NCBI GenBank assembly: GCA_021018995.1
Contig: CM037591.1
Location: 71,017,901 to 71,081,900 of the forward strand
Length of the DNA stretch: 64,000 nt
Origin: Chloranthus sessilifolius
Taxonomy: Eukaryota; Streptophyta; Magnoliopsida; Chloranthales; Chloranthaceae
Reading direction: 5' to 3'
Shown: piece after piece, positions 1 through 64,000 of the stretch
Position numbering within the stretch: position 1 is the first letter of the stretch
How the letters are laid out: the number at the start of each line of letters is the position of its first letter
Notes under the pieces: generated by a model
Seen by the model: only the letters and a program-made list of their open reading frames with translations
The model's database searches: none
Told to the model about the DNA's origin: nothing
Translations under genes and position numbers: made by a program

Positions 1-215
1 TAGCTAGATCAACATTAGTTAGGGTGCCAGATCTCTTACAGATCTGGTGATTTACCCAATTCCAAGCCACCTCTCTGTGGACTTCCCCTTACTTTTAAAA
101 CTTGCTACAAAGGACCCTGTACCTTGCAGGCCTAGGATTTCCCAGCTGTGCTAAACCCATCTCTATTTTCTCTTGATGTTTACACCATAAATGAGCACAA
201 TGGAATTCCGCAACA
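1..215 (+). repeat. 3' end of the 5' LTR of element A
   Basis: It is nearly identical to 10323-10537, with scattered substitutions (for example gtgccag/gtgtcag). It ends in CAACA just before the primer binding site, so the LTR terminus CA is at 214-215. Confidence 0.9.
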
Positions 216-221
216 AGTTTT

Positions 222-239
222 TGGCGCCGCTGTCGGGGA
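222..239 (+). promoter_or_regulatory. Primer binding site of A (tRNA-Asp type)
   Basis: TGGCGCCGCTGTCGGGGA follows the LTR end after a short agttttt spacer. This is the layout usual for Athila elements, which prime with tRNA-Asp (TGGCGCCGTTGCCGGGGA type). Confidence 0.85.
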
Positions 240-538
240 GGTGTTTGTGAATTTGGTAGATCTAGTTTTATTTTATAAATTTGTAACTGTGTGTTTGATT
301 TTACTAATTGCATTTGTAAGTTTTGCTATTTTTCAGTATTTTTGTTGTGCGCATTCCATCAGATCTAAGAACAGAGTGAGAGGAGAGCCGTGCTGAATGC
401 TGCTCTATAGTTTGCATCCCTTTTTCCCCTATTTATTTTTTAGATCTATTGATTTTTTTTTTTTAGATTAATTAGTCAGTTGTGCTGCTTCTTTCAGTTG
501 TGTGACGATTTATTCTCCATTCAATTTGTGAGTGTTGT
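240..538 (+). other. Untranslated leader of element A
   Basis: T-rich leader between primer site and gag. I see no palindrome cluster here, unlike the leader of B, and no convincing ORF. Confidence 0.6.
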
Positions 539-2302
539 ATGTTTGGTAGGAGAACTCTTCAACCTCAGATTATTCCACTAAATCCAAAGGTTGAAAAACT
601 TCTCAGATCCAGACCAACTACATCTATAGTTGTTGAAATGGGTGAGCAGCAGCAGCCTCGAACTCTCAAGGAATTTAATGCTTCAGGGATCTACAATTCC
701 CCCTTCTACATTCAGTTCCTTGCTGCTCAAGGAAACTATGAAATCAAATCTTCCATCAATCAGATGTTGCCCTCATTTCATGGCCTGACCAAGGAGGACC
801 CTTATAAGCATATAGATGAATTCTTAGGACTGTGCACTACCTTCAACATCACAGGTTTGGGGGAGGAGGCAACTAGGATGAGGCTCTTTCCTTTTTCATT
901 AGAGGACAGAGCCAGGACCTGGTTGTCTATGCTTCCACCCAACAGCATTCAGTCTTGGGGTGACCTCTAATGTCAAATTCTGGCCAAGTTCTTTCCCATG
1001 TCAAAAACCAGTCAGTTGAGGAAGGGTATCATCTCTTTTGCCCAAGATCCAACTAAAGACTTTCACCAATCGTGGGAGAGATTCATGGAGCTCCTTAAGA
1101 AATGCCCGCACCATCAAATCCCTGAATGACAATTGGTCCAAAGCTTTTATCAGGGAATTGATTCGAAGAGCAGGGACACGGTAGATGCCGCTTGTGGTGG
1201 CACCTACCTCCATAAAACTGCTAAGGAGGCATGGGAGTTGTTTGACATTATTAGTGAAAACTCTATGCAAAGGGAAACCTTAGCAAGAGATTTAGAGCCT
1301 CCTAAATTGATGAAATAGAACACCTCAAGAGGAAAGATATATGAAGTGAGTGTACCAAGTGATTTGGAAAGGAAAGTGGACAGCCTGGTAGTGAAATTTG
1401 ACAAGTTAATGGGAGCAATGCAGTCACCAATGGCTGCTAGAGTGGAGGAGGCATGTGCCATATGCCAGTCCCCTGCTCACTCCCTGGATGAATGCCCATC
1501 AGCTGCCCAATTTCCTGATTTTGTAATAAAGCATGTGGCTGCAACTCAGTCTTATGGGCAGCAGCCTGCTGCTGGGTATCAATGGAGAAACCACCGCAAT
1601 CAAAGGTGGAGACAAGATGCATACCCCAGCCAGCAGCAACAGGAGCCCCAGCAGCCCATGCCTTACAGAAATGCTTAGCCCTATCGAGAAGGTTATGCTC
1701 CAAGACCTTAATATCAATAACCCATTGCCCAACCTATAGCTCCTCCGGTGCAGCAAGTTGCACCTCCTCCACCTGTGAGAATACCATCTTTTGAGGAACA
1801 AGTTCTATCATCACTGCAGAACTTGAACACCTTAACCCAAACTGTGCACTCTCACAACCAGAGCATCAAAAAGATAGAGGACCAACTTGGTCAGCTATTT
1901 GATGCTCTGACTAGGAGAGAGGGAGGAAGGTTACCTAGCCAACCACAGGATAATCCACGAAGAAAATTTATAGTGGGTGAAGTTTCCTCCACCTATGAGG
2001 AAGCCAAATCTGTGATAACTTTGAGGAGTGGTAGGCTAGTAGACAATCAAGTGGGCTGTGAGCCTGCGAGAAGTTTGAAGGAAGAGAATGGAATGAGTTT
2101 TACAAGAACACAACAAAGGCCACCAGTGGTGGACCTGATAGAACAACCCACTGTCAATAAAGAGGATGATATGGATCCTCAAAGAAAGGAAAAAATAAAA
2201 AAGAACGAAGCCCCTTTGGCTAAGGCTACAAATGAGGGAGCAATCCCCCAGTTGCCATTTCCCAAGGCATTGCAAGGACCCTCCCCTTTTGACAAAGGGT
2301 AG
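539..2302 (+). pseudogene. gag: Gag of element A, interrupted by stop codons
   Basis: Gag is the structural protein that packages element RNA. One reading frame runs from ATG 539 to 2302 and aligns by eye with gag of element B: the FHGL block near 780, the LFPFSLEDRARTW block near 890-920, the CGG block near 1195, and a CCHC zinc knuckle (C-x2-C-x4-H-x4-C, CAIC...H...C) near 1456-1495. Stops break the frame near 968, 1127, 1316, 1676, 1710-1740 and 2300. Most are TAG or TGA where Q or R is expected (for example TGA at 1127), which is the pattern of C-to-T decay. No intact product is possible. The frame continues into the protease region. Confidence 0.9.
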
Positions 2303-3128
2303 GGCAAAATTGAGGAACTGATGGAGACTTTCAAGCAAGTTAAAATTAATTTGCCTTTACTTGATGCCATCAAACAAGTCTCAGCCTTTGCCAAATTTTT
2401 GAAAGAGTTATGCACCCATAAAAAGACAGTCTAGGACATACTTATCCAAGAAAGTCTTTTCAGCAGAGGAGGTAAAACACATTCTGTCCATTGCAACTCC
2501 CACCAAACTTCAAGACCCTGGAGTGCCCACTATCCCCTACATCATTGGGGATCATAAAATTAAGAAGGCCCTATTAGACCTGGGAGCCAGTGTGAACTTG
2601 CTGCCCTATGCAGTCTATGAAAAATTGGGCCTGGTAGACTTGAAGCCCACACCTGTGGTCCTGCAACTAGCTTACAGGTCTGAAAGGAAACCTGTGGGAG
2701 TCATTGAGGACGTCCTGGTGGGAGTTGAAAAGTTTTTTTACCCTACTGACTTTGTGGTATGAGATATGGAGCTAAGTAAAGGTATTTCCTCCATCCCTGT
2801 GATTCTGGGCAGGCCCTTCTTTGCCACTACCAATGCCAGTATTCAATGCAGATCTAGAATCATGGAGGTCTCCTTTTGCAACATGAAAGTAAAGCTGCAT
2901 GTGTACAGCACCAGCTCTCAACCCCCTTTTGATGAGACCTATTTTTCCATTGCAGGGCTGGAGGAGGCTCTGCATGATAATCCTCAACAGCTGCTACAGA
3001 GCAATGATTGGCCTATAGAGACAAGATTGCAACCAGGGGTTGAACAATTGCTGAGGAACGAATCCAAGAAGGATGACAAGTTCGAGGAACATGGGGAGGC
3101 CATTAACATTCCAGATCCTCCAGATTAG
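2303..3128 (+). pseudogene. Aspartic protease region of element A
   Basis: The retroviral-type aspartic protease cuts Gag-Pol. The active-site block reads LLDLGASVNLLP near 2573-2610, an Athila-type variant of D-S/T-G-A. A second conserved block, VILGRPFFATTNA, lies near 2800-2840. A frameshift near 2420-2430 separates this from gag, and TGA at 2761 breaks the frame. The reading frame ends at 3126-3128, and what follows (3129-3360) is AT-rich and non-coding. In element B the same protease continues into RT, so A has lost RT, RNase H and integrase by deletion near here. Confidence 0.85.
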
Positions 3129-3360
3129 CACCTGCAGTTTAGTATGTATCATATGTACCATATTTTGCTTTTATTTGAGATGTTTTACTTTGCATTTCTA
3201 GTAATATTTTGTTGCAATAATCATACCATGTTATCTATTGGGTCGCCATTTTATATTTGGCAGCTGCTCTAAAATAATGGGAGCTCGTCCACAAAAGAAT
3301 CCAATCGTAAGTGCTGAAGCTAAGGGTGCCCAGAAAAGCAATTTTATCTGGGTGTTGGAG

Positions 3361-3713
3361 CCTTCGATAGGCCAAATCTACCTTTCGTTAGGTTACATGG
3401 TGATTTCGGCTGGATATCTAATGGTTTCCATAAGCACTAGATGTTTCGATAGGTAAAACCAACTTCTCGACAAGTTAAATAAGGGCAAACAAAGATTTCG
3501 ATAGGTTCTGGGTACATATCGGGCACCTATCGAAAAGATATTTTCTGCAATTTAAACCTATCAATAGGATGGTCTCACTTATCGAAACCCTTTGGAATCA
3601 TCCCTTTTGAAAGCTTTGATTTCCAAGCTTTCGACAGGACGTAGCAACCTATCGAAACCATTCCATTCATCCTGTCGAAATCGCATTTTCACCTTTATGT
3701 ACCTGTCGATAGG
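3361..3713 (+). promoter_or_regulatory. Cluster of CCTATCGA/TCGATAGG motifs upstream of the extra ORF of A
   Basis: About twelve copies or close variants of CCTATCGA in both orientations, some as the full palindrome (cctgtcgatagg near 3702, cctatcaatagg near 3556). The cluster ends about 300 bp before the extra ORF. The next stretch has a CT-rich tract and AAACCCTAG boxes (near 3745 and 3912), as in plant 5' untranslated leaders. The same motif recurs in the LTR of A and nowhere else obvious in the window. Confidence 0.75.
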
Positions 3714-4014
3714 TCATTTGTGCTTCATTCCTTACCCTCTGAAAAACCCTAGCTCTCTTCCTCATTTTTTTTGCCTCCCTCTTTCTCTACTAAATCCTCA
3801 CAAAATCTTTCGTTGTTCAGTGTGCTATCTTGTCAATAGATTTAGCTTGCGTAGAGGAGCATTTTGCCCCTAATTTTGGAGAAATTGGAGTAGTGCATCG
3901 CTAGCTCTGTGAAACCCTAGGTACTTGGAGGTGAGTTGCCTTCCTACAATCAATCTGTTATTTTTCTAAGTTTTCCCATTCCAAGTTGGTGAGAAATTCC
4001 TTTTTGAGATTAAA

Positions 4015-6853
4015 ATGGAGGAGCCTGAGGAAAGCATGCTTGACATCATCAAAATCAAGCATCCACCCCTAAATCCTCCAAAGAAAGCGCTACTGCTACC
4101 AAACACCTATAAAGAGGAAGCTGGAGACACCAAAAGGTCTAAAGCTAAGAAAGCCAAAGCTGTTCAAATTCGAGAACACATGGTGAAACACCTTAGAGAA
4201 CACTACCCTGACAGACCCATTCTCAGACTCCCTATACTAACCAATGAATTTGTAGACAAGTTGAGCCTTGTCCCTGAGAGTGAATTTGATCTGGCATATT
4301 TTGCCAACATTGGAGAATGCAAGGAAACACTGAGTTATTTGAAAAAAGAAGGCTTGTTGCCCCTACTATCACCATTGAAAGAATCAGTGTATCCCAGGCT
4401 GGTGAAGTTATGGTACCAAAACCTGAAGAAGAAGGTGGCACAGGGGACTGATGATGTACTAGAGATCTCGATTGATGATTGGCAACTAACTATCGATCAT
4501 AGAGACATAGGAATGGCTTTGGGGGTCCCATACCAATTTGACTCCAACCGCGCTGAGGAAGTACCTGTTGGAGCTACATTTAAGGACATGGCCAAGCAGC
4601 TAACCAATGGGATTGTGGGTTCTGGAGAATCCTTGATGAGAAGAGACCTCCATCCTAGTCTCAGATTCATGGATACTATCTTAAGGAAAAATGTCTATGT
4701 TTGAGGACATTTACAGGAGAGAAGGTCCCCCATTAGTGGATGCTTTATTCTATTGTTCCCAGGGGCAATTCGTGAATGCACCTAAGCTGATCTTTGAAAC
4801 TATGGTGGACATGAATGACAAGGTGCTAAAAAGATAGGCTTTTGCTAAGGGAGGAGGCCTACCCTTCAGCAAACTCATCACCTGTCTGCTCAAAGCTGGA
4901 AAGTATAGGATTAAGGAGGCTGAGCCAGTGGAGAAAATGGCTCCCAAGGTTTTTGGAAAGAGGGCATGGTCTACAAGTTTAACCCTGATTCAAAAGACCA
5001 AGCCGGTTGAGGCAGAGGAGGAGATGCCCACTACCTTAGCAGTAGATCATGCTGCTGACATTCCCCCATCCACCATTCCCCCTACAGCACCCACTTTTTC
5101 ATCCACCTTACCTACACCATCACCTACTCCTTCACCCACCTTGCTTTTCACATTTGTCTCCGTCCCCCTTCCACCCACCACTCAGAATTTGACACAGGGT
5201 CCTGGAACTCCCACCTTCTCTCAGCCTATCCCACCATGTCCTCCCCGCCTCCTTCATGATTCCCCCCTCCACCACTACCTATACATACACAGGGTTTGGA
5301 CCAGTTCACTTCTATTGGTTTCACTGCCCTCATTTCTTCAATTATGGAGGATGTTGCTCATGAGTACACCCCACTGCCTGACTCCCCTCACCCCACTCCT
5401 TCTCATTTTACCCATGCCCCATCCTCTCCTTTCCATCCCATTCAAACACCCATCCCCTCTACTTCCACCCTGCCTGGCACTTTCACCCAAATCCTCTCCC
5501 TCCTACAGTTCATTTAGACCCAATTAGCCACTAACACTGACAACCAGGCTCTCATGAGCTCATGCCTCCAATCAATTCAATCCACCCTTACTCCCCCCCT
5601 TCAGTTTCCCTACCCCTTCCCACTTCTCCTCTCCCTCCGGATCCCTCACTTTTCCATTTCTCTCCCCCCTTTTCAACCATAGCCTCCCCCATCCCTACTG
5701 ATATCCTATTTGTAGAGTTAGCATCTCCAACCCTCCTCCTTCTCGTGATTGTTTTACCTTCATCCACCACACTTTTGTTTACAGAATTCTTTGAGATACC
5801 CACCACCCATTCCCCCTTTTCCTCTCCACCTTCTTTCCATGATGCTTCCACCCAAACTGATCCATGTGAGGATCTCATTTTCTACCCCCCCTCCTCTTCA
5901 TCCACTACACCTTTGTCCTTGCCTATTGTCCTTCTCCAATCCATGTACATACCTCCTTACCTCACCTGTATGCAATGAGGGAACACCCTTACATCCACAG
6001 AGATGTCTTAAGAGGTATGGTTGCACTTCGAGCTTCCATTGAGGCCCCTTTTGAGGAGAGGATTGCCTGTATCGAATTGGAGCACCGAATTCAACTCCGC
6101 GATATCTCTCAAGGGTCGACTGAAATTTTGACTCGTTGTAAGTCAGCAAAGCAAGTGGCCGCGGCTGAGAGTCTCATTGCCAAGTATGAGAAGAAGAGTT
6201 CTGAGCTCCCAAGAAAAAGTTAGCCAATGCTTAGGAGATCATCAAGGCCACCAAGGAGCTCTCAAATGCTAACCTCCTCTATGCTGCCAAGAAGATTAAT
6301 ATTTTGGAGAAAAAGGTTGCTTCATTATTGTCTCAACCCTTTCAGCCTACCCCTCTTGCTATAGCACCTCCTATTGCGCGTCCCTCCCCTCACCCATGTT
6401 CCCCCTCTACAACTATTCCTTCAGCGACCCCACCTATGGATGTTCCCCCTCCTCCTCCTGCCCAGGTACCTCCACCTGTCCAACCTATCCCTCCCAAACC
6501 AAAAAGGACTCCCTCCAAAAGAACCACCACCGCCAAGAGATCTGCTTCTTCTGCTGCCTCTATAAAAAAAGGAAAACAACTTGCTACCCCATCCAAAGCA
6601 GCTAAGCACACCAGGTCCTCCGCTCAATCTGACCCCCATGGCACCCTACTCTCTAGGGATGAAAGAAGGAAGGCTGCTGCGGCTCTAGGATTGGACACCA
6701 ATTGTCCTTTTCCCTTCCAATTAGGATTCTGGTTCTGCGCCTACTGTTGATCCTAAAGGTAAAAAGCCTGTTGTCCAGTCTGAGGAAGCTCCCACAAAAC
6801 AACCACAACAATCCAAATCCAAGGGCAAGGCCCCCATATCTACCTGTATCTAA
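4015..6853 (+). pseudogene. Extra ORF of element A (putative plant transposon protein domain), broken
   Basis: This ORF lies after the gag-pol position, where Athila elements often carry an extra or env-like ORF. From ATG 4015 I see a Lys-rich stretch (KRSKAKKAKA, about residues 41-50), then a domain with YPRLVKLWYQ near 4387. That motif matches the extra ORFs of B and E (PRIIRLFYQ, YPRLVRLFYQ) and, as I recall, the domain called putative plant transposon protein. A frameshift near 4690 and TAG at 4837 follow. A Pro/Ser/Thr-rich region covers about 5040-5960, an Ala/Glu/Lys helical stretch about 5990-6330, and a very basic tail (PKPKRTPSKRTTTAKR) about 6495-6540. More frameshifts occur between 5530 and 6725. 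A nuclear DNA-binding protein would fit, but no function is proven. It has no visible signal peptide or membrane span. Confidence 0.7.
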
Positions 6854-8589
6854 GGGGTAGCTGGCACCAAGCTCTATATGAATGTGGCCATTTGTTGTTT
6901 CAGTTTCTTTTTCATTTGTCTCTTGTATATATTTGACATTTTTGTTGTGTTATTCTATAGATATCTTCTTACCTTGTCTCTCTCTTGATTGCATTTTTTC
7001 AAAATAGTGAGGACACTGTTTGGTTAAGGTTTGGGGGTGTGGCATGTATGCCAATAAACTAGTTAATTTTAGTGCAGCCAAGTTAAAAAGGAATAATAAA
7101 AAAGAGAATGAATTCACCTCATATTTCTTGTTAAGGAAACTTTAAAAACCATTTACAACTGAAGTAAGCTGAAGTTTTAACATTTTTCATGAAGAAAATG
7201 TCAATAATTTTTGAAGAAAGTTTTTGATGTGTAATAAACCAGCAACGAGAAGAGACTGTGAAGATACCCCCCAGAAAAATTGGATGGAAGGCCATACCCA
7301 GTGAGAATTGGGCCTGAAAGATTTCTTTGAAGAGTGTCATGGCAATTCTTTCTGCTTTAAGGACTGATTGGGCCTAATCTTGATTACTAGAAGTTAGGCA
7401 AATCCGAGTTGAAACAACTTGACAACACTCAGGACATTGAAGATGTGAAGTAAGGCCATCCTTCGGACAGTTTGAGCCTAAAATTCCCCACCTTTGAACT
7501 GCCTTGATACACACCTTTTTGAGCCATAAAAAAGTCCCAGTTTTCTTTGATAGAAACCAGAAAGTTTGAACCCAAAACCCCTTTGGCCCATTTCAGTCTA
7601 CCCCCAATCTGAGAAATCAAGAAATGGAAGGAGAAATGAGGTTAGAGGAGCAAGGTGGCAAATTTGGTCAAAAGGAAGGAAAACACAGTTTGTGATATTG
7701 TGGCATTCCAACCCACACACATTTAAAAAAAAGAAAAAAAAAAAAAAGAAGAAAAAGCAAAGGAAAAGAATGAGAGAAGTCACTCCACTTAAAAATCTAT
7801 AAGAAGAGAAGAAGCTAATCACTTCAAGTCTGAAAATTTCAAAAGGACAGTGAAGAGGTTCTGAATTGAAGAAGGTGAAGTCATGAATTACCTCCTTGCC
7901 TTTACTGATTTCTCAATTTCGAACTCTGTTATCCCTTTTTGTTCCTTCACAAAGCTCATACCTAAGCCACATTACAACCCAATAAAAAGACCTTACTGAT
8001 CTGAAAGTAGATTGAGCTGTCTTGTGCAGATGAGAATCTGCTTAATCTATGGTGAAAAGAGCTAGAAAAGTCAGAAATTCAAGCAATGCCTATGCTCCTG
8101 CTTGCAATCCTATTTGAGGGTTGTAACAGCTATTAAGCTAAGAGATATGATTTACCCCTCTTCTCTGTACTAATGAGTGAACAGCCCTGGTGAGACTTGG
8201 ATCTGAAATCCAGTTGATGGGGGAAGTATTTGAGCAGGATCCTCAAATTGATGGGGAGTTATGCATAAAATTTCAGGAGAAATGCCTTGACACAAACTGA
8301 GTGATGATGGAGAGATTTCACCAAACTTTCATATTTTCAAATGGATGTTTTTCTGTTGAATTTCCTTTAATGAATGGGCATGATGTGAATTTATTTGATT
8401 TGCTTAAACTCTACTTTAACAGGTTGCACTATTATTAACTAAGTGTATTGGAGAAGTTTGTGGGTACCTTCACTGAAAACCCTCAGGAGACTTCACTCCT
8501 CCACTAGGGATCACCTAGGGGTTTAAAAGGCTTGATGCATAGGCTAAATGCATCCGTGCTCCCTACTCAGGGATTGGCAAAGCTTAGGA
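6854..8589 (+). other. 3' untranslated region of element A
   Basis: About 1.7 kb without a supported gene. It starts with a polypurine-like aggtttgggggtgtgg near 7028-7045 and includes an A-rich simple repeat (7724-7762). Patches resemble the B 3' region at 27700-28420, for example the ccattacaacc...aaaagacctt block near 7970. I see no RNA gene here. Confidence 0.6.
8468..8535 (+). promoter_or_regulatory. Conserved terminal block before the 3' LTR of A
   Basis: GGTACCTTCACTGAAAACC, then CAGGAGAC, CTCCTCCACTAGGGATCACC and TAGGGGTTTAAA, almost the same as 28340-28405 in element B although the surrounding untranslated DNA has diverged. The half-palindromic CTAGGGATCACCTAGG could form a small stem. 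It lies just upstream of the purine tract in both elements, so a role in plus-strand priming or RNA 3' structure is possible. Confidence 0.55.
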
Positions 8590-8598
8590 TTGGGAGTG
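8590..8598 (+). promoter_or_regulatory. Polypurine tract of element A
   Basis: ttgggagtg directly before the LTR start TGTTAAGTGG. The position matches tttgggggtg before the LTR of B, where the target duplication fixes the boundary. Confidence 0.65.
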
Positions 8599-8817
8599 TG
8601 TTAAGTGGTGAAAAATGCCACTTTTCACCCTTTAACCTGACCATCGATATCCCTGTGAGCACACTAATACCTTTGTTGAGTGCATTTTGTAGATAGCAGT
8701 GAAAGCTGGTAATAATGCAGAAAACCAATTAAGAATGCCCACAATGAAGTCATCTCTCAGCACCATGCAGACCCAGCAACAGAACAAGGGGAAGGAAGTG
8801 AAGATAGGTTCAAAACA

Positions 8818-9195
8818 TCCTATCGAGAGGATGTCTGAAGACTTCGATCGAAGCTGAGGGTTAAAAGGAAGGAATTCGTGCAGTTGAGATGGGTTCGATA
8901 GGATCAGAAGGCAGAGAAAGGAAGAATTTGTACAGAAGTGAAGAATTCGACAGGATCCAAGAACCTATCGAGCAGTTGAAAGAAAAAGAGAATTCAACCT
9001 ATCGAAAGCTGGCTTGAGGGAAAAAGGAGACATATCGAAAGATTCCCTAAACCTATCGAATTACTCTTCCAACCTGTCGAAGGCCCCAGATTAAGTGCAG
9101 TGAAGCTAAAGCATCTAAGCCCAACCTATTGGAACCTATCGAAAGGGGCTACAAACTCCTTTTCATCCTATCGGAAGCTTCTCCAACCTGTCGAA
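8818..9195 (+). promoter_or_regulatory. Cluster of CCTATCGA motifs in the LTR of A
   Basis: About a dozen copies in both orientations (near 8819, 8884, 8946, 8966, 8999, 9051, 9077, 9136, 9167 and 9187), with variants such as cctgtcga. Several neighbours are 20-21 bp apart, for example 9031, 9052 and 9073 by their tatcga/tgtcga cores. The cluster ends about 200 bp before the LTR TATA box. Confidence 0.75.
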
Positions 9196-9378
9196 ATTGC
9201 GTGCAGGACTTCTCAAAAATTCAGCTGTGCACATGCTGTGACTTGGTGACTTACTGCATGCAAACCGAGGCACTTTAGTGACCAGCACGATGTTCTAGAA
9301 GATGCCCTAGAAAGCCCTAACCAACCCACGTGCTCTAAAATAACCCTAACAAACTCTGAGGACCTTCTAGAAGGGATT

Positions 9379-53505: not shown

Positions 53506-55021
53506 ATGCCACCCAAAACTCGGTTGTCTTCGAAGAACGCAACCTCTAAGCTTCCGATTCGGCGTAAGAACGCCGCACCACCACCACCGACCCCATCACC
53601 CGTGAGGACCCCGTCACCATCGACATCGGACACCACGTCCTGGTCGACAAGCGCGTCTTTGCATGGGTCTTCACGTGAGTCTACCCCTATGCTACCACCA
53701 CCCACTAACGTGGTACAACCCAATGAGTGGTGGGCCACAAAGACCTTTGAGGTCGAGTACCTTTTTCACAAATCCCGATGTGCCGGGTGAGACCCAATGG
53801 GCTCGTAACTATCTTAGGAATGCCGGTCTCGGCAACCTTCTCAAACCAATCTGGGGTTCCTACTACCCTAGATTGGTGAGGTTGTTTTACCAAGGGCTTG
53901 TGGACAGCCCTACCGACGATGTGATCAAGACCACCATAGAGGGTCGAGAATACATGATCACCTGTCGCCACATACACGAGGTGCTCGAGTGCTACCTCGA
54001 TTTCACCCCTGAGACCACCCTCTTCCCACCCTTTGAGGAGGACCCTCGGTTTGAGGAGATCATGACCCGCATGACCAACGAGAAGAAGGGGTCGGGATCC
54101 TCCATCAAGCGGGTCGACCTTCCCCACTACATGTGGATGCTTGATTCCATAATCAAGTGTAATCTCTACCCGTTGCGGCACGACACCGAGCGGATAGATA
54201 TGGTGCAACAGGCACTGTATGCGGCCTTCTGTGGCCGGTGGTTCGACGCCACCATGCTCATCCTCGAGGGGATGAGATATATTAAAGGAAAGTTAATGAA
54301 GGGCAACTTAAGGCCCAAGGAGAAGATGCCCTATGCTCGCCTCATCTCGAGGTTGTTGGAGTGCTACTCCAACGATCCCTCCTACACCATCTCGCCTCAC
54401 GAGGTGAGGGCTACGGACCGTGTGAAGACATTTTCGAAGTCTTCATTGACCCGCAGCTACAACTTACTAAAGCGGACTCTACCGGCTCCGAGTCCGACTC
54501 CAACAATAGCAACAGCAGTAGCACCACCACCACCCCCACCACCACATCAGGACCCACCCGTGGGTGGGGCACACCCAGCCGAGCCATCAGTGGAGAGGGC
54601 TACCTCTCAGACCACAGCCTTCACCAAACCACTTGACTCACTCCACCCCGCTACACCCACATCATCATACCCGCGTAGCGTAGCTCCATCCGGTCCTACC
54701 ATCGAGGAGGTGTTGGCTCGCATGGAGGCCAACAACGAGCGGATGAATCAGAGGATGGACTTCCTTATGTTCCATACCCTCCGCTGCATCTACCCGTCGG
54801 ACTACCAGCGCTACCTCGCTCAGAAGGAGGAGTGGACTGCAGGACGGACCGCCTTCCACAGAGGTCCCGTCTTCCATCCGACCACCGCCACTATCGGCAC
54901 TGCTCCTTCCACATCTACATCTGCTCCGCCGACTGAGACGCCGCACTTACCGCAGCCGCTATCGCCTCGGACCGCCCAACCAGCACAAACTTCACCACCC
55001 TTGATCACTGACCAGCTCTAG
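53506..55021 (+). pseudogene. Extra ORF of element E1 (putative plant transposon protein domain), one frameshift
   Basis: I choose ATG 53506 (MPPKTRL) because a leader with telo-boxes precedes it; an upstream in-frame ATG at 53410 is possible. The N-terminal part is basic (KLPIRRKN) and then Pro/Ser/Thr-rich. A one-base insertion near 53760 shifts the frame, and from there one open frame runs to 55021. It holds YPRLVRLFYQGL near 53868, ITCRHIHEVLE near 53955-53985, LPHYMWMLDSIIKCNLYP near 54120-54170 and ALYAAF near 54212, aligned with the ORFs of A and B. A Pro-rich linker (54480-54700), a helix around EEVLARMEANNERMNQRMDFL (54703-54765) and a Pro/Ser/Thr-rich tail follow. Such an ORF after a chromodomain pol is unusual. 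Function unknown; it is nearly intact. Confidence 0.75.
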
Positions 55022-55355
55022 CAGACCCTTGACCCCATAGCACCGTCGGCTCAGTTGAGCACTGCTCTATGCGGACCAGCTGACTGCATGAGCCTCGTGC
55101 TCTCATTTTTGAGTTCTATTGTATGCATGTATGTAGTGTACGCCAACTTATTTGGCGCGTTGTAAAAATTTTCAGACATTAATAGAAATAAAAAATTTTG
55201 GTGTAAATTTTTCATTATCACAACCTTTATATTCTATGTTGTCTTTTTCTTATTACCGTAGTACATCTGAGTCTACTGGGCCACCTCACCTGCGAGTGTG
55301 GGGGGGAGACCCAGACCTACGCACCTTTGGGTTATTTTCGAGGACGAAAATTCCC
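55022..55355 (+). other. 3' untranslated region of E1
   Basis: AT-rich with an AATAAAAA signal near 55187. It ends with TTCGAGGACGAAAATTCCC, a stretch commonly seen before the purine tract in Del/Tekay elements. Confidence 0.6.
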
Positions 55356-55368
55356 AAGGTGGGGAGGA
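55356..55368 (+). promoter_or_regulatory. Polypurine tract of E1
   Basis: AAGGTGGGGAGGA directly before the LTR start TGTAATATCCCG, as usual for chromodomain elements. Confidence 0.9.
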
Positions 55369-57793
55369 TGTAATATCCCGAAAAATAAAGTTAAACAGTG
55401 ACCTCGGGATCTGTGCCCGATTGGTCATGGGTTTGACCAATTAGGAGTTCAATAGTAAGCATAGAGTGTGATGAATGGATGAGATGTGATAAATTGATGA
55501 ACTGTGTGGTGTGTGATGTAAATGTGAAGTCACATACACCTATCGCGGTGCATGTGCTCAACACACAATTGAGAGGAGAGATAAAAGGGTTTAATAACCC
55601 TAAGTTGTATGTTTTGGGTTGTTGGGAGAGAAGTAAAGAAGAGAGAGAGAGGAGTAAAGAAGGTTGAGCAAGGAGTGATTGTGAGTGATTGGAAGGGGGA
55701 TTCAAGCATTAAAGAGGCCAATTCAACACGAGGAATCCGTTCAAGCCAAAGCTGGAACCCTAGCCTTTCCAACCACTTGATTTAAATCAATTTGAAATTG
55801 ATTGAAGGTAAAATTCTTATAGATTAAATGCACAGATTGAAGAGTTAGATTGTAGTTAGAAATGGGTGAAAATATAGGATAAAGGCTTAGAAAAATGAAG
55901 GAAAAAGAAAGGGAAAAAGATTGGGAAGAACAACCAAAAGGGGGCTGAATCTGCCCATTTCGATTAATCGAAATTGAGTTTCGATTAATCGATTTTGGCC
56001 AAGAAGTTGAAAAGTTAGAGGACCCCGATCTCGATTAATCGAATTGAGTTTCGATTAATCGACTTTGAATTTCGATTAATCGAATTGGTATTCGATTAAT
56101 CGACCGGGAACCTACAGTGAACTCCAGTGGAGAAAAGAAAAGAGCTTGGAGAAATCGACTAGTCGAAATGAGAGTTCGATTAATTGATTTTGGAAACTCG
56201 ATTACTCGAATTGAGAATCGACTAGATAGAATAGAGAAATTCGACTAATCAAATGGGAATTTGATTAATCAAATGAGAATCGATTAATCGATATTGAATT
56301 TCGATTAATCAATTTTGAAGTTCGATTAATCGACTGTGCCAGTTTATGTTGACTTTTAAGTTTGACTTTAAGATTCTTGGAGGGTCTTGGACCTTCTTTA
56401 TTACATCTTTAGTGATGTGTTTCACACGTTATGTGGTACCATAGGTGGTACGTGTGAGCTTGGGCACAAGGAGCCACGTGGGACCTTGATGCATGATCAA
56501 ACAGAGACTTGAGGTAGGGAACACCTTGAACATGTACTTTATTTGGAAGAGCTTGTATGTAGTGATATAGAATTCGATTCAAAATATTTTATTGCTTAAG
56601 AGTTTGTGAAAAGTGTGTGTGTGACATCAATAAGAGTAATTATAATGAGCCATCCCCAGGGGATGAGGAAGTAAAGAGATAAGAGCATCAATGTGTGATG
56701 CAAGTGAATGGATACATCCCAGGGATGTATCCAAGTTTGAATCATGTTTGATAGGGCCTAACTGATATAAGATAACACACTTACACGGTGAATAACTATA
56801 TGTAAAGCACCTAATACTTTTGTTATTTGAGGTTTGATAGGGTACCCCACCGACATGGCAGGATATCCACGACTGACACGACAGGATATCTGTGACCGAT
56901 ACGGCGGTGAAACCGTGAAGCAGTCATGAGGATTATCCGGAGTTGAGACAAGTGAAACCCCGCCACCAATCCCCAGGGGAAAGGGGCTTGGGTACTATTT
57001 ATATTCCCAGGGAATACTTTTAAAACTGTCTATATAGATGACGATGATGGGTATCTCATCGGGGCTCAATGCTATATTGCTCGGGGATTACTTAAGTTGA
57101 AGGTTTAAGTTTGCTTTAGGCCTTTTCAGCATCATTAATGAATAAGTAAAAGATATGAGTAAACTACCAGTAAGAATGTGATTCTTTTCAAACTGTTTTT
57201 CATCAGTAACTGCATAGACACATCATGCATGACATATCATGGAATATATGTGAGTGGTAATTTATAGGTTCAACTGTGTTCTGTTCCCTATTGAGCTAGG
57301 ATGTAGCTCACCCTTTAGACTATACGTCGCAGGTCCACTATTAGCAGCTGCCGAGGCTTCAGGAGACGTTGACCCCGGTGAGTCGGACCTTGCCCCTGGA
57401 GACGAGTTGGAGCCACCTCCTGAGGACTTCTTCTAGAGGACTCCGTTGTGCAGCTTTGAGAGTTTTGACAGATTTTTATACGGCTTCGTATGTCAGGCCT
57501 TGTTTTGATTAAACAATATATATGTATAGATTTGTGATAATTCTTTTGGGTGAACCATCTATGATGATTAGCTATCATCGATGGTTCGGATCTGTTCTCT
57601 GTTCATGTAGAGGCATGAGGGTAGAACTGTATTTTGAGAAATGCTTATACAGTAATTTAATTCCGCAGCTTCATTTACTATTTCAATTTAATTCATTGCT
57701 TGATATACCAATGTTCCATGCATAGCTAAGGGGCACGGTCAAGATAATCGTGCTGATGGCATGGGTTTCGAGGTGTCAAAATCCGGGCTGTCA
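55369..57793 (+). repeat. LTR shared by E1 and E2
   Basis: 2425 bp, TGTAATATCCCG to GGGCTGTCA. A purine tract lies before it and a primer site after it, so it ends one element and begins the next. It contains a CGATTAATCG cluster (55961-56332) and GGATATCC-type repeats (56855-56910) shared with the LTR of C. No other gene is supported in it. Confidence 0.88.
55961..56332 (+). promoter_or_regulatory. CGATTAATCG cluster in the LTR of E
   Basis: About fifteen copies, several in a row with spacers of 10 or 11 bp (for example 56033, 56053, 56074 and 56094). It lies in the first quarter of the LTR, as in C. Confidence 0.88.
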
Positions 57794-57797
57794 CAGT

Positions 57798-57810
57798 TGG
57801 TATCAGATCC
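57798..57810 (+). promoter_or_regulatory. Primer binding site of E2 (initiator tRNA-Met)
   Basis: TGGTATCAGATCC four bases after the LTR end; complementary to the 3' end of initiator tRNA-Met. Confidence 0.9.
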
Positions 57811-57897
57811 ATTTCTTTTAGCAATTCTGACAATCATTCTTTTGCCATAACATAGGGACTTCTGCTAACGAGACTTTAGTTTCAATTGCAGCCGTCA

Positions 57898-59276
57898 ATG
57901 TCGTCTAGAGGAAGAGGCCGACCAAGGGGAGGCCAACAGAGGAGTCTGCATAGTGGAGATGATTACATCTCTCCTACCAATAGAGTGCCTTTAGGAGGTA
58001 CCGACGCCCCAGGGGGCAGTAGTAGTAGACAGCATGATGATGAGGATCGAGATCGTCAGGATCAAGATCAAAGAGAACAAGAGAGACTTAGAGAAAGACA
58101 AGAGGACAGAGAGGAGCGATAAAGGATGATGCATACCATGGAGACCATGGCAGCTGCCATGGCACAACAAGCTGCATCCTTTGCAGCTCATGCAGCGAGA
58201 GAGCAGCAGCCGCCTACACCACCTATAGGACCCGCACTGCCTGTGCCCTCATCCTTTACAAAGTTTAGGAGGATGAGACCTCCTTCATTTTCAGGGCAGG
58301 CAGACACGATGGCAGCTGAAAATTGGCTGATGGAAATGGAGAAGGTCTTTAGCGTGCTGACATGCACGGAAGATGAGAGTGTGACATGGGCAGCCTACAT
58401 GCTGGACGGGGAGGCTGGGCCTTGGTTGAAGTTCGTGATATGGACGAGGGCTCAGGAGACCTCGGAGTTGCCTTGGACTTGGGAGGAGTTTGTTGAGGAG
58501 TTCAACAAACAATATTTTTCGGAAGTGGTAAAGAATCAACTTGAAATACAATTTCTACAATTAGTGCAAGGGAGAATGACAGTGAGAGAATATGGGGTGG
58601 AGTTTCTATGACTTGCCCATTTTACTCTGGATTACGGCGCTACCGATGTGATGAAGTCAAAGAGGTTTCAGCAAGGTTTGAAGCCTGAGGTTAGGGGAGG
58701 AGTAGCTCCATTTCAGTTGAGGACCTATGAAGAGGTCATGAGCAAGGCACTGGTTGTGGAAGAAGAAAATACAAATAGATATAGACAGAGAGAGCAACAG
58801 AGAGGAGGAAATGATCAAGGAAGATCGGGGAACTACGAACCGGTGAACAAAAAGCCGAGGTTCGTGGCCCAAAATCAGAGACCACAGTTCCAAGGGGGTT
58901 TCGGAAGACCGACGCAACAGCAACACCAACAGAGGTTTCCATTACTTGCGTCGGGGAGACCTTTACGCTATGAGAGCCCTGCCATGTCTACTAGCACTAC
59001 TATCACACAGGGTTCTCGTACAGTTTCTTCCGCGCCTCGAGAGACTTGTGCCAAGTGTGGCAAGCCTCAGAACGGTGGATTGTAGAGCAGAGACTAGGGG
59101 TTATTTTCGATGTGGCAAGGTGGGCCACTTGATCAAGGATTGCTCCGAGACTGACAAAGGAAAGACGGCTTCGGTTGCAGCACCACGAACCATTCAAGCA
59201 CAGAAGCCGGTCGTTCATGGGAGAGCCTATGCAGTCACTGCTCAGGAGGCAGGGAACGTGCATGACGTCATCCAAG
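57898..59276 (+). pseudogene. gag: Gag of element E2
   Basis: ATG 57898 starts MSSRGRGRPRGG. The frame has TAA at 58120 and TGA at 58609 (R expected), and carries FRRMRPPSFSG near 58266, WTWEEFVEEFNKQYF near 58472 and GRMTVREYG near 58570. A frameshift near 59080 follows. The zinc knuckle near 59098-59145 reads YFRCGKVGHLIKDC: its first Cys is Tyr (TAT), so metal binding would be impaired. The end (AYAVTAQEA...DVIQ) matches gag of C and stops at a splice donor. Confidence 0.88.
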
Positions 59277-59440
59277 GTGAGACTCTTTTAAATTAAGGAA
59301 AATTCAAAATTTTTTTTTTTTATAGAGAAGGTGCATTCACTAGGAATAGTATAGTTTCTTTCACTAAACACTAAATTTATAATTGAATTAGGGGTGTAAA
59401 TTGATGTGTAAATTATTGTATGTATGTATGTCTACTATAG
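59277..59440 (+). other. Predicted GT-AG intron between gag and protease of E2
   Basis: CAA-G/GTGAGACTC (donor) to CTACTATAG/GT-ACT-TTA (acceptor), 164 bp, with a T-run and in-frame stops (first at 59294). Removing it joins gag to protease in frame through a split Gly codon. C has an intron at the same place (14387-14555). Confidence 0.78.
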
Positions 59441-59960
59441 GTACTTTAACTATATATGAGAAGGGATGCTTTGTTGGATATGACGCGAGAGTGTTGATAG
59501 ACCCAGGGTCTACCCACTCATTCGTCACTCCACGTTTTGCCAAGAGGATGAAGATTGTTCCAGAGGTATTAGACTTTGTCCTATCTGTGTCTATTCCGAC
59601 TGGAGAGTTAGTGGACACGGAGTTAGCTCGCAAATCTGTCATTGTAGCAGTTCGAGACCTAGAGGTGCATGAATTGGAAGCAAAGTTGATACTGCTGGAC
59701 ATGCAAGGATTTGATGTGATCCTTGGCATGAAGTAGTTGGCGCAGCACAGTACAACGGTCGATTGCAAGAACAAAGTCATCATTTTCAGACCCAACATAA
59801 GAAGATCATTTCGGTTTCAAGGAGTGAGGTCGTCATCTTTGCCACTGATCTCAGCAGTAAGGGCCAAGAAAATGATCAGAAAGGGTTGCAGTGGATACTT
59901 GGCTTTCTTAAAAGAGGACAAGGAAGAAAAGAATGTCATTCCTGAGATAGCCGTTGTGCG
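59441..59960 (+). pseudogene. Aspartic protease of E2
   Basis: Active site VLIDPGSTHSFVTPRFA near 59493-59540, and LLDMQGFDVILGM near 59695-59733, followed by TAG at 59734 where TGG (W) is expected. The frame then continues open through the linker to RT ([16 protein letters not shown] region near 59875). Confidence 0.9.
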
Positions 59961-61273
59961 AGACTTCGCCAACGTGTTTCCAGAAGAATTGCCTGGATTA
60001 CCTCCAGAGAGAGAAGTGGAATTCGTCATTGACTTAGCACCGGGAATGGAGCCTATTTTGAAAACGCCATATAGAATGGCTCCTGCTGAGTTGATGGAAT
60101 TGAAAGAACAACTGCAAGAGCTCATGGACAAGGGGTTTGTCAGACCGAGTGTGTCTCCATGGGGAGCATCGATCTTGTTTGTCAAGAAGAAAGATGGGTC
60201 AATGCCACTATGCATTGACTATCGACAATTAAACAAACTCACTGTGAAGAACCGCTACCCTTTTCCTAGAATTGATGATTTGTTCGATCAACTACAAGGA
60301 GCAAGGTATTTTTCCAAGATCGATCTGAGATCTGGATACCATCAGTTATGAGTCAAGGCAGAGGACATTCAGAAGATAGCTTTCAGGACACGGTATGGAC
60401 ACTATGAATTCCTTGTGATGCCGTTTGGGTTGACGAATGCTCCGACTTCGTTTATGGATCTGATGAATCGAGTGTTTAAACCACACTTGGACTCCTACGT
60501 CGTAGTGTTCATTGACGATATCTTGATATACTCCAAATCTAAGACGGAATACAAAGAACATTTGAGGATTGCTCTACAGACGCTATGTGAACACCAATTG
60601 TATGCCAAACTCAGCAAATGTGAGTTTTGGTTGGAAGAGATTAGCTTTTTGGGACATGTTGTCTCAAAGCACGGTGTCACGGTAGATCCAGCAAAGATCG
60701 AAGCAGTGGTTAAATGGGAGCAACCAAAGACAGTGACCGATGTCCAAAGTTTTCTGGGCTTAGCAGGCTATTATCGACGTTTCGTCGAGGGGTTTTCAAA
60801 GATATCGGGACCTCTCACAAAGCTGACACGAAAGGATTCAAAATTTGAGTGGAGTGAGGCATGCGAGAAGAGTTTTCAAGAACTCAAAACGAGACTCACT
60901 TCGGCTCCAGTGCTAGCGATTCCTTCAGGTAGTGGAGGATACGTAGTGTACAGCGATGCGTCATACAATGGGTTAGGTTGTGTGCTCAACCAGCACAAGA
61001 AGGTGATAGCTTACGGATCAAGACAACTGAAAGAACACGAGAAAAATTACCCGACTCATGACTTAGAGCTAGCAGATCATTTTGTCTTTGAAGATTTGGA
61101 GACATTACTTGTATGGTGAGACGTTTGAAATTTTCACCGATCATAAGAGCCTCAGATACCTGTTTACACAGAAAGAGCTCAACATGAGACAGCGCAGATG
61201 GATGGAGTTCCTAAAGGATTATGATTGTTCTATATAGTACCATCCAGGCAAGGCGAACGTAGTAGCCGATGCC
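59961..61273 (+). pseudogene. Reverse transcriptase and RNase H of E2
   Basis: One frame, broken by TGA at 60349 (R expected), runs to 61119. RT blocks: [25 protein letters not shown] near 60160, [25 protein letters not shown] near 60272, [15 protein letters not shown] near 60424 and the catalytic IDDIL near 60513 (FIDD type). The RNase H has [15 protein letters not shown] near 60945 and [20 protein letters not shown] near 61013. A small deletion near 61075 shifts the frame; [17 protein letters not shown] and NVVADALSRK follow in the other frame, with TAG at 61237. Confidence 0.92.
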
Positions 61274-62854
61274 TTGAGTCGGAAGGGTTCATCTCAGTTA
61301 GCTTGCTTGATTTTTGGTATGCACCGGTGGAAATTATTGGAAGACCTGGCACTTGACGATGCGAACATTGAGTCGAAAGCTACAGGATCCTTTTTGGCTA
61401 ACATATCAGTGAAGCCAGTAATATTTGAGCATATCCACGATCTACAGATGAAAGATCCGACCTTAACAAAGATTCATCAAGACGTGATTGAGGGCATCAG
61501 GCCGGACTTCTCAGTAAAAGAAGATGGTTCTTTATTGTTCAAGGGTCGTCTCTGCATTTTGAACAATGCGGATCTAAGACGAATGATTCTTGATGAAGCT
61601 CATAAGTCAAATTATGCTATCCACCCTGATAGCACCAAAATGTACCTAGACTTGAAAAAGAACTACTGGTGGAGAGGTTTGAAGCAAGACGTGGCCAAAT
61701 ACATGTCACGGTGTTTGACTTGTCAGCAGGTGAATATTGATCATAGACATCCGGCTGGACTATTACAGCCTTTACCAATACCAGAATGGAAGTGGGAATC
61801 GATCTCGATGGATTTCATCGTTGGATTGCCGCGTACTGCCAAGAGACACAGTGCCATTTGGGTCATCGTAGATCGATTGACCAAATCAGCGCACTTTTTT
61901 CCATACAATACGATGTATACGGCAGGAAGACTGGCAGACTTATACATGAAGGAGATTATAAGACTACACGGGATTCCAAGCAGCATAGTTTCTGATCGTG
62001 ATCCACTTTATACATCCAAGTTTTAGAAGAAATTTCAAGAAGGAATGGGAACACGACTAGATTTTAGTTCTGCTTTCCATCCTCAAACCGATGGGCAGAC
62101 CGAACGAGTGAACCAAGTGATAGAAGACATGCTCAGAGTGTGCATGCTGGATATGCAAGGATACTAGGATGAGTATCTACCGTTGATCAAATTCGCATAC
62201 AATAACAGTTTCCAAACGAGCATTGGCATGGCACCGTATGAAGCTCTGTACGGAGGACGATGTAAATCACCCCTAAATTGGGAAGAAACAGGTGAAAAGT
62301 TCATTTTGGGACCAGAACTGCTTGAAGATAACGCCACTGTAGTGCGTATAATCAGAGAGAGGCTAAAGTCAGCACAGAGTAGACAGAAAAGTTACGCCGA
62401 CATCAAGCGAACTAGTGTTGACTATAAAGTGGGTGAACACGTGTTTGTGAAAGTGTCGCCTATGAAAGGTGTAATGAGATTTGGCAAGAGAGGTAAGTTA
62501 AGTCCCCGTTATGTTGGACCATTTGAAATTTTGGGATGTGTAGGTGAAGTGGCGTATCGCATTGGCTTACCACCGCTATTTGATCGGGTACATAACATTT
62601 TCCACATATCGAAGCTCAGAAAGTATGTGAACGATCCATCTCATGTGTTAGGAAGTCAACCTATGGAGATGTGTGAGGACATCAGCATGATAGAGGAACC
62701 AGTGGAAATCTTGGATTGAAAGGAACAAGTATTGCGCACTAAAGTGATTCCTTTAGTGCTTGTTCGATGGAAAAATCATCCTAACGAAGAAGCTACATGG
62801 GAACGAGAGGCCGATGTGAAAGAACAATATCCAGCCTTGTTTCCAATGACTTGA
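61274..62854 (+). pseudogene. Integrase and chromodomain of E2
   Basis: One frame from 61274 to 62854 with TAG at 62024 and 62165 (W expected at both) and TGA at 62717. Zinc region SNYAIHPDSTKMYLDL...CLTCQQ; core D in [11 protein letters not shown] in VSDRDPLY, E in DGQTERVNQ; YEALYGGRCKSPLNW near 62240; chromodomain from about 62760 (VRWKNHPNEEATWERE). Close copy of E1. Confidence 0.92.
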
Positions 62855-63067
62855 GAATCCAATGTAAACTACAAACATGTTTCAGGAATCTCAACAATAC
62901 TTGTAATTTAATGGAAGTTTTGATCAAGGTATGATAAATGAACAAATTTTTATATACACATGACCTTGAGGATGCGTTTTGTGGAACTAAGGATCACTTG
63001 ATGTCATAAACTACAAGAGAAATTAAATAAACAAAGAACTTGAAAATCTATAGAAATTGGGCAAAAC

Positions 63068-63806
63068 TGATTAATCGAATTTCAAATCGATTAATCGATT
63101 TGGAATTTTGATTAATCGATTTTGTTCGATTAGTCGACTGGCATGTGCCAGTGACTGTAAACTTGAGTACGAGTTAGAAAACATATAGAATGAAATTTTG
63201 ATTAATCGATTTAGGTTTCGACTAATCGATTTAGGTTTTCGATTAATCGAACTACATGTTCGATTAATCGAACAAACGGGGAATGTTAGAAGAATTTAGA
63301 GGGAATTACTGAATTTTCGATTAATCGAGGAGATTTCGATTAATCAATTTGTGATTTCGATTAATTGAATCGGGAATTCGATTAAATGAATAACTTAAGG
63401 GACTTATGAAAATTTGAAGAGGAACGATTTTGATTAATCGATGTGAAATTCGATTAATCGATTTTAGATTTTGATTAATTGAACCATGGTTCGACTAATC
63501 GAATAACTTAAGGAATCCTGAAAATTTTGGAAAGGACTGCATGATTTCGATTAATCAAAGTGAATTTTGATTAATCGATTTTGAAATTTCGATTAATCAA
63601 AATGGATTTTGATTAATCGACTGGCTCGCGCCAGTGAGCTCTAAAACTTAAATTTTTAAACGGATACGATTTCGATTAATCGAAATTATTTTGATTAATT
63701 GATTTTGACTTTCGACTAATAGATTTTGGAAATCGATTAATCGATTTTGCACGGCTTAACCTAGTTTTGAATCTCGATTAATCGACTTTGGATTTCGATT
63801 AATCGA
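63068..63806 (+). promoter_or_regulatory. CGATTAATCG array in the 3' region of E2
   Basis: About 24 copies, aligned with the array of E1 but shorter: the terminal unit of about 57 bp and one cgactaatcg unit are present once instead of twice. Many differences between E1 and E2 are C/T changes at the CG of the motif. The TATA box TATATATATAAAA follows at 63816. Confidence 0.9.
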
Positions 63807-64000
63807 GCCGGCGCCTATATATATAAAATTGGGGATTTCACTCCCCATTCGAAATCATTTGAGCTTTTCGGATTTTGGGTGTTTCTTCTTCTCCTTCTTC
63901 TCCAAACATTCGGCGCCCTAGGGTTGCGCATTCGTTGGTGTTTTGGATTGGATTCACGTGCGAGCGCATCTAAAACCCACGGTAAACCCTAAAATTAGCT

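Follow-up and report, generated by a model that had tools for sequence, protein, structure and literature searches.

What do dense clusters of short motifs do in a 64,000-nt stretch of DNA (the window) whose retrotransposons carry extra ORFs? The original prediction held that each of five families has one clustered palindrome, recognised by its own extra-ORF protein. The reading favoured here, with a probability of about 0.6, is that these elements encode a DNA-binding regulator of their own LTR and internal promoters.

An unbiased 8-mer scan of the whole 64,000-nt stretch in 700-bp segments recovered five motif clusters, A to E. Among 543 shuffles, the top 8-mer count was 1–3 in 534, 4 in eight and 5 in one. 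Motif B, TCAATCGATTGA, has 37 perfect copies and 42 at ≤1 mismatch, all inside 15683–29800; of 89 permuted palindromes, not one occurs there in perfect form. Motif E, TCGATTAATCGA, has 29 perfect copies and 56 at ≤1 mismatch, of which 55 lie inside 50732–64000 (0/119 permuted palindromes with a perfect copy). The 11 sites of motif D (≤4 mismatches) are all inside 36220–43062. Motif C is represented by three perfect copies of ATCGATCGAT, two overlapping each other, and at ≤2 mismatches its consensus is found at 18 places in C, but also at 43 in B. The palindrome predicted for A, CCTATCGATAGG, has no perfect copy in the window; motif A is actually the asymmetric CCTRTCGAAA, with 22 of 30 sites (≤1 mismatch) within element A, where 200 permuted consensi averaged 1.08 sites and reached 8 at most. 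The B, C and E motifs are 10–12 bp palindromes without a loop, and D has a one-base spacer. The arrays are real, B and E being far above chance, D solid and C weak; one clustered palindrome per family was borne out for B, D and E, but not for A, and weakly for C. The 8-mer scan also flagged low-complexity repeats, TTCCTAAA near 17.2 kb and AAAAAATC near 39.5 kb, along with a small number of weak clusters (count 4) outside any family.

The layout is most complete in element B, an Athila-type Ty3/gypsy retrotransposon on the plus strand. Its 5′ LTR (15683–16951) begins with TG, ends with CA and is 97% identical to the 3′ LTR (28535–29800), and a 5-bp duplication, GCCAT, is present at both borders. 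The gag (17925–18827; Retrotrans_gag, E 3.7e-23) and the pol (20277–23537), with RT (RVT_1, E 2.6e-28), RNase H and integrase pieces in several frames, are followed by an extra ORF (24403–25524) with one in-frame stop (24988–24990). Palindrome arrays occupy the 5′ LTR (15932–16099; TATA at 16129, 30 bp past the last site), the 3′ LTR (28784–28952; TATA at 28981, 29 bp past the last site), the leader 5′ of gag (17550–17872) and both flanks of the extra ORF (23859–24300 and 25644–25963), and additional palindromes lie ahead of the 3′ LTR (26791–26916). The array 5′ of the extra ORF is followed by TATATATA at 24310, 10 bp past its last site; the leader array and the one 3′ of the ORF have no TATAWA within 45 bp.

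In element E, the extra ORF (53506–55021, plus strand) is open over 53663–55021, its N-terminal part being in another frame. The array 5′ of it (52475–53261) is followed by TATATATAAAA at 53273; the 3′ array (55960–56333), probably located in the LTR, has no TATAWA within 45 bp. A second E copy, also on the plus strand, has a primer-binding-site-like sequence (57798–57809; initiator Met type, one mismatch), a gag-pol (58123–62719) with an RT piece (RVT_1 E 2e-6, just under the cut-off), an integrase zinc-binding domain and a Tf2-1-like SH3, and an array (63067–63806) with a TATA at 63816. Element A, whose only gag or pol content by Pfam profiles is a gag fragment below the cut-off, has helically phased asymmetric sites (3362–3713) 5′ of its extra ORF (4015–4704, plus strand) and a further array toward its 3′ end (8819–9196). 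In D, arrays at 36220–36481 and 38615–38729 are joined by three sites (42946–43062) 5′ of an extra ORF (43226–44203, plus strand), which is antisense to the adjacent pol pieces (46485–49712, minus strand). The C arrays are real but loose: one (10629–10790) is downstream of a minus-strand chromovirus-like pol (10991–15682) with a Ty3-type SH3 and a chromodomain near the cut-off, and the other (31605–32012), on the opposite side of the inserted element B, probably belongs to that chromovirus as its 5′ end. The predicted position of clusters upstream of extra ORFs was therefore found in A, B, D and E, but no extra-ORF protein was seen for C; the position upstream of LTR promoters was found in both B LTRs, and is weak at most in A, C, D and E.

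When the extra ORFs of A, B, D and E were scanned against Pfam at E ≤ 10, element E gave Transposase_32 (E 5e-9), D gave a plant mobile domain (PMD; PF10536, E 7e-11, 42.3 bits vs. a cut-off of 34.9) with DUF7745, and A and B gave nothing; the VANC domains DUF1985 and DUF287 did not come up. A search with Transposase_32, that is, through the protein family alone, reached a sixth family, F, which is absent from the window and has its own palindrome, ACGGACGTCCGT. Against the 45-bit cut-off of Transposase_32 (PF20167), F scores above (63.4) and E below (36.7). In single BLASTP comparisons, the A and B proteins matched that of E (E 3e-17 and 5e-11), and B also resembles A; by this similarity the A, B and E proteins are homologous and Transposase_32-like. 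A basic N-terminus was seen in the E, F and A proteins and none in B, and the C-terminal segments of B, E and F show heptads like those of a coiled coil; structure predictions were of low confidence (mean pLDDT 36 and 40). For the D protein, no similarity to the other extra-ORF proteins was shown, which speaks against a shared model.

Genome copies allow the pairing of motif and protein to be followed in B, E and F. At least three sites of the E motif were found in 30/30 E loci and 0/30 F loci, and at least three of the F motif in 29/30 F loci and 0/30 E loci. Against the model, a C-like word also reached three sites in 4/30 E loci, and B arrays occur in two loci, L003 and L004, that resemble element B in nothing but the motif. 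Because motif and protein are passed on jointly from copy to copy within a family, the pairing in each family amounts to about one event. No site was found in the matched ORF of E (37.5 kb over 30 copies), nor in the domain stretch of F (30 copies) or B (eight copies). Of the remaining predictions, avoidance of coding DNA thus agrees with every stretch counted, and a motif that changes with its protein is supported by the homologous A, B and E proteins with their differing motifs and by the same pairing in F. The match of motif to family stands for E and F and is loosened by the stray B arrays. The limit to Ty3/Gypsy elements was not borne out, as F has a Ty1/copia pol (RVT_2, E 8.8e-39, at the one locus examined). 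First-look genome searches gave 54,657, 13,855 and 31,610 candidates for extra ORFs of this kind, of which only 93, 150 and 150 were scored.

The sites are placed and spaced in a regular way. The last B or E site before an extra ORF of the window lies 10–12 bp from a TATA box, and in genome copies a TATAWA stands 10–14 bp past the last pre-ORF site in 29/30 E, 8/8 B plus 3/3 diverged copies, and 11/30 F, against a background of 0.02 within 15 bp of random non-coding places. However, 19/30 F loci, one of them without an array, have no TATAWA within 60 bp of the last site, and 11 of the 16 window arrays, among them the array 5′ of the ORF in A and in D and the one 3′ of the ORF in E, have none within 45 bp downstream, which counts against the model. 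Doublets are spaced by 22 bp in B, mostly 18–22 in E and mostly 20–22 in F. At 22 bp past the 42 B sites with ≤1 mismatch, 20 further sites (≤2 mismatches) and no half-decayed ones (3–4) were found; the B sites are sharp amid diverged spacers. The A gaps lie near multiples of 10.4 bp (0/4000 jittered sets equally phased; p 0.004 and 0.009 per array at ≤1 mismatch), but not significantly so with the nine perfect sites alone (p 0.094; per array 0.055 and 0.078), and longer gaps are unphased in B (p 0.97) and E (p 0.85).

Both parts of the module are constrained. Median dN/dS was 0.16 for the E protein (105 pairs of 15 stop-free copies) and 0.18 for the domain of the F protein (157 pairs with dS >0.05, 21 copies), so both are under purifying selection. 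Substitution rates were compared at non-CpG sites, with site positions set by a third copy, and the motif/spacer ratio was 0.22–0.25 in E and 0.33–0.45 in F; these motifs, too, are under purifying selection. When the E array was compared between its two copies in the window, the motif constraint was not significant (5/197 vs. 26/628 non-CpG changes, p 0.39).

Each family would then hold a two-part regulatory module, a regulator gene (the extra ORF) and arrays as its putative binding sites. The regulator, with a Transposase_32-like core, or a PMD in D, may bind symmetric sites as a dimer, with cooperation between neighbouring sites two helical turns apart. Binding upstream of the LTR TATA, for genomic RNA, and of the TATA of an internal promoter that serves the extra ORF could create a self-activating loop with own-family recognition; we infer activation rather than repression, and likewise the feedback.

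The strongest competitor, though unlikely, is VANC-like anti-silencing, whereby an array-bound protein would strip DNA methylation from the element instead of activating a promoter. Dense, family-specific non-coding motifs with fast turnover among relatives are the layout described for VANC targets (PMC5735166), CpG is present in all five window motifs and in that of F, and a 2026 sunflower paper, in its available text, asks the same of extra ORFs (PMC12844716). However, VANC21 sites are described as asymmetric, in the same orientation and often tandemly repeated (PMC5735166), whereas B to F sites are palindromic, and the B and E arrays adjoin TATA boxes, which favours promoter activation at least as much as anti-silencing. 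Also against it, mismatches in E are often of the CpG-decay type (30/50; B 5/13), a sign that those copies may once have been methylated. It is less likely still that the arrays bind host transcription factors while the extra ORF serves another purpose, env-like or in nuclear import. The Sirevirus study found mostly stress-factor sites as matches for its motifs (PMC2829016), a likeness to env has been drawn for sense extra ORFs (PMC7264820), B arrays occur away from element B, and several arrays are distant from an extra ORF. Yet array type tracks extra-ORF type, the F palindrome was reached via a protein-family search, and in A, B, D, E and F an array stands immediately 5′ of the extra ORF; all three would be surprising for an unrelated ORF.

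Two further explanations are improbable. The palindromes might form RNA or cruciform hairpins, or be small-RNA hot spots of host silencing, as the palindrome regions of maize Sirevirus-type LTRs are reported to be (PMC5311732). The D motif with its one-base spacer could fold, but loopless palindromes of 10–12 bp should make poor single-strand hairpins, and purifying selection is not expected on a target of the host; we regard this as very unlikely. Functionless minisatellite expansion is the least credible of all. Many 20–22 bp arrays were found by TRF in the window, array lengths differ among genome copies of a family, and B spacers may share descent, since they are more alike than shuffled ones (36% vs. 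25%, SD 1%). Such expansion does not account for strongly unequal motif and spacer rates, for A gaps mostly unequal in length yet following the helix, or for TATA adjacency repeated in B, E and part of F.

For a self-recognising regulator, the closest precedent is the set of palindromes next to ENV in Sireviruses; VANC and foamy-virus Tas are analogues. In Ty1/copia Sireviruses, family-specific palindromes (RMs) cluster in LTRs, where they are drawn upstream of the TATA box, and, in 9/9 ENV-bearing elements and 0/4 without ENV, in the linker that precedes this gene (PMC2829016). The Usier RM, GTCGGACGTCCGAC, includes the F core CGGACGTCCG, and the Tnd-1 RM, ACAATCGATTGT, the B core CAATCGATTG (PMC2829016). 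The RM was termed Sirevirus-specific, with host stress factors indicated, and the available text does not propose that ENV binds it (PMC2829016). Here, Ty3/gypsy elements have arrays as well, some arrays lie 3′ of the extra ORF, and a Transposase_32 protein goes with them. No Ty1/copia affiliation was seen in A, B, C or E, unlike in F (1/1 locus); palindromes upstream of both the LTR TATA and the extra gene were seen in B only, and in E and F upstream of the extra ORF only; and the CGG-CCG core is present in F but absent from the A to E consensus words. Sunflower Athila elements likewise have a 3′ extra ORF that partly matches PF20167 and is predicted to carry a nuclear localisation signal, but the account available discusses env-like and RNA-silencing roles and does not describe motif arrays (PMC11728184).

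VANC of VANDAL elements is also a TE-encoded protein with dense, short, family-specific non-coding motifs, motif and protein diverging between families; it differs in its domains (DUF1985/DUF287), in its asymmetric, same-orientation motifs in tandem repeats and in its DNA transposon host, and binding and demethylation were demonstrated (PMC5735166), whereas the present system is known from sequence. Tas is a retroelement-encoded activator that binds the LTR and an internal promoter (PMC4929722); here the likeness is one of circuit, seen in site layout alone, and homology is not claimed. Retand TRP28 and Grande gene23 are accessory proteins, nuclear or predicted to bind DNA, encoded between pol and the 3′ LTR; gene23 has its own promoter and Retand tandem repeats are family-specific, but these genes are antisense and the available texts do not describe a motif-protein pairing (PMC11963269, PMC7264820). 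The D extra ORF encodes a PMD protein, as do MAIN and MAIL1. PMD-A clades are encoded by Gypsy elements, and host PMD genes are required for the expression of DOWN-motif genes, direct DNA binding being left as a question; the DOWN motif (CATGCAGTTT at MORC1) is unlike motif D (PMC7156037, PMC5418596, PMC9899485).

It is conceivable, at slightly less than even odds, that both superfamilies of plant LTR retroelements share a mobile cassette in which a Transposase_32/PMD regulator gene is joined to its cognate array-TATA promoter, and may have exchanged it among Ty1/copia Sirevirus-like, Ty3/gypsy Athila-type and chromovirus-like families. If so, the 'env-like' genes of Athila and Sirevirus would be self-recognising transcription factors with foamy-virus-like positive feedback, and motif and protein would have been re-paired between lineages. 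One testable function would cover three puzzles, namely the Athila/Sirevirus env-like ORFs, the Sirevirus palindromes and DNA binding by PMD proteins. A set of orthogonal protein-DNA pairs is predicted, by which retrotransposons would boost their own expression and leave host genes untouched. Across the genome, B doublets number 20,529, and the reversed control gave 0.

The window consists of LTR retrotransposons nested within one another, from a genome of 2.17 Gb whose element types point to a plant. The lineage names used here are presumptive, as they are taken from domain content and known features rather than from trees. Element B (15683-29800) is taken to be an Athila-type Ty3/gypsy element with gag and pol, LTRs that are 97% identical and a 5-bp target duplication. 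Its leader also holds a tandem repeat of TTCCTAAA units at 17200-17355, which is unrelated to the palindromes. Element B interrupts element C, a chromovirus-like element on the minus strand (10991-15682, resuming from 29801), in which gag, protease and Ty3-type SH3 domains were matched, and the chromodomain match fell slightly under the cut-off. Element E is present in two copies (50732-64000) that are 95% identical across 2 kb, the second with an initiator-Met-type primer site at 57798. These copies stand in tandem, about 10.59 kb apart, with one LTR region apparently common to both, and the pair could have arisen by unequal recombination. C and E share 68% identity across 3.4 kb; the last-scanned pol piece of E matched SH3 only, so that the chromovirus label of E depends on its likeness to C. 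Element A (1-10537) comprises remnants of LTRs that are 94% identical, part of gag, an extra ORF, i.e., an added gene beyond gag and pol, and motif arrays. No pol was found in the five of its six listed ORFs of at least 130 aa that were scanned, and A looks like a non-autonomous element that kept its regulatory module.

The original prediction assigned to each family a clustered motif of its own. This was largely borne out and was strengthened by genome copies of B, E and a sixth family, F, except that the motif of A, described as a palindrome, is the asymmetric CCTRTCGAAA. The proposed enrichment was confirmed for the perfect 12-mers of B (37) and E (29), as against none for the permuted palindromes (89 tried for B, 119 for E). 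Element B has 22 doublets at 22-bp spacing, with 19 different spacers among them; the alikeness of these spacers is 36%, compared to 25% when shuffled, yet far below that of the motif. Sites are mostly 18-22 bp apart in E and mostly 48 bp apart in D. The 20 merged sites of A (up to one mismatch) occur in both orientations in two arrays, and their 18 gaps (20-23, 31-33, 49-55, 61-62 and 72 bp) track the helical repeat, although the phasing is not significant on the nine perfect sites alone. The longer gaps of B and E were tested for phasing, and none was found. Three diverged copies of B from the genome, whose matched proteins are 84, 77 and 76% identical, preserve three 22-bp doublets (up to two mismatches) and a TATA 10 bp past the last site, while the spacers inspected were different.

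If extra ORF and motif are paired, other families with the same protein should bear their own palindromes. A genome search with Transposase_32 (PF20167) gave 13,855 first-look candidates, of which 150 were scored and the best 30 fetched. In 29 of these 30 loci, which define family F, ACGGACGTCCGT clusters were found upstream of the ORF, and neither B nor E arrays were present in the 30. The sole locus traced further upstream has a Ty1/copia pol (RVT_2). In F, the place of ENV is taken by a gene for a Transposase_32 protein, and we infer that F is a Sirevirus member. Among published Sirevirus motifs, that of Usier contains the F core CGGACGTCCG and that of Tnd-1 the B core (PMC2829016). Because both cores lie within Sirevirus motifs, the published motifs and the present arrays look like one phenomenon. 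The match between motif and family held for F. It did not hold strictly for B, as two loci (L003 and L004) carry B-type doublet arrays of 19 and 15 sites (up to one mismatch) in 3-kb stretches that, the motif apart, showed no likeness to element B and matched none of the extra-ORF proteins. This speaks against a strict motif-protein pairing, and the B palindrome may be used by another family as well. Pairings within one family are non-independent, and the evidence on those of A, C and D comes from the window.

The palindromes of maize Sireviruses were reportedly the subject of Bousios et al. 2016. The literature searched, most subscription papers being outside it, yielded no account of such arrays for Ty3/gypsy elements or of a link between them and Transposase_32. 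For Arabidopsis Athila6A, an internal promoter region is mentioned in one paper (PMC4977677).

Both the proteins and the motifs were compared between genome copies. Median dN/dS of stop-free copies was 0.16 for E (15 of 30 loci, matched ORF) and 0.18 for F (21 of 22 stop-free loci, L042 left out; domain stretch), the pairs being non-independent. Motif and spacer substitution rates were compared twice, with sites set by one pair member and then by a third copy, using in both cases 28 of 30 E loci (all but L011 and L021) together with 24 of 30 F loci; badly aligned stretches were dropped, and one of the three F placements comprised 21 pairs. With third-copy placement, the motif/spacer ratio was 0.22-0.25 for E and 0.33-0.45 for F at non-CpG positions, and 0.50-0.53 and 0.13-0.38, respectively, at CpG positions. 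When sites were placed by one pair member, inter-site spacers and other flank were equally variable. Motif constraint was not significant between the two window E arrays and was present in the larger copy sample. The predicted avoidance of coding DNA was also seen: E sites in the genome loci numbered 0 inside ORFs (37.5 kb), 731 upstream and 494 downstream.

Readings of the arrays as minisatellites, hairpins or host-factor sites were weighed and set aside. The extra-ORF protein as a putative self-recognising transcriptional activator is favoured over a demethylator on sequence grounds, because of a TATA geometry that recurs in B and E and in some of the F loci. The array ahead of the extra ORF in B and in both E copies stops 10-12 bp short of a TATA box. 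Genome loci have TATAWA 10 bp from the last site in 8 of 8 for B, at 10-14 bp in 29 of 30 for E and at 11-13 bp in 11 of 30 for F. In both B LTRs, the array ends 29-30 bp before the TATA box, and D has TATATG about 29 bp past its last site, with no TATAWA match. However, 11 of the 16 window arrays scanned, those ahead of the A and D extra ORFs among them, lack a TATAWA in the next 45 bp, which counts against the activator reading. The predicted interpretation stands in outline, its mechanism still being a proposal, but it erred on motif A, and its restriction to Ty3/gypsy hosts was too narrow, given the Ty1/copia locus of F.

The E protein matched Transposase_32 under the cut-off (E 5e-9), and the A and B proteins matched no Pfam family. 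Single BLASTP comparisons linked A to E (3e-17), B to E (5e-11) and A to B (6e-13); F matched A weakly (E 0.005-0.03) and is linked to E by their common Pfam family. Read from sequence, a basic stretch lies near the N-terminus of the E, F and A proteins, and those of E, F and B have a C-terminal segment with an apparent pattern of hydrophobic heptads (a/d positions 0.64-0.88 hydrophobic versus 0.24-0.35 elsewhere, as the best of seven registers). Two AlphaFold predictions of extra-ORF proteins had mean pLDDT values of 36 and 40, too low for a confident fold. Against solved structures, the D protein had no match and the E protein six at chance level (E 0.63-0.96), and a single protein database search with the E ORF returned no external relatives. 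Viral contigs gave no match for two motif patterns or the B and E RT pieces, nor did plasmids for the B LTR. The pol pieces of element D (RT, RNase H and integrase; Ty3/gypsy) lie at 46485-49712 on the minus strand. Its extra ORF, which encodes a plant mobile domain (PMD), is antisense to them (43226-44203, plus strand) with the D palindromes directly upstream, and is a possible model of DNA binding by PMD proteins.
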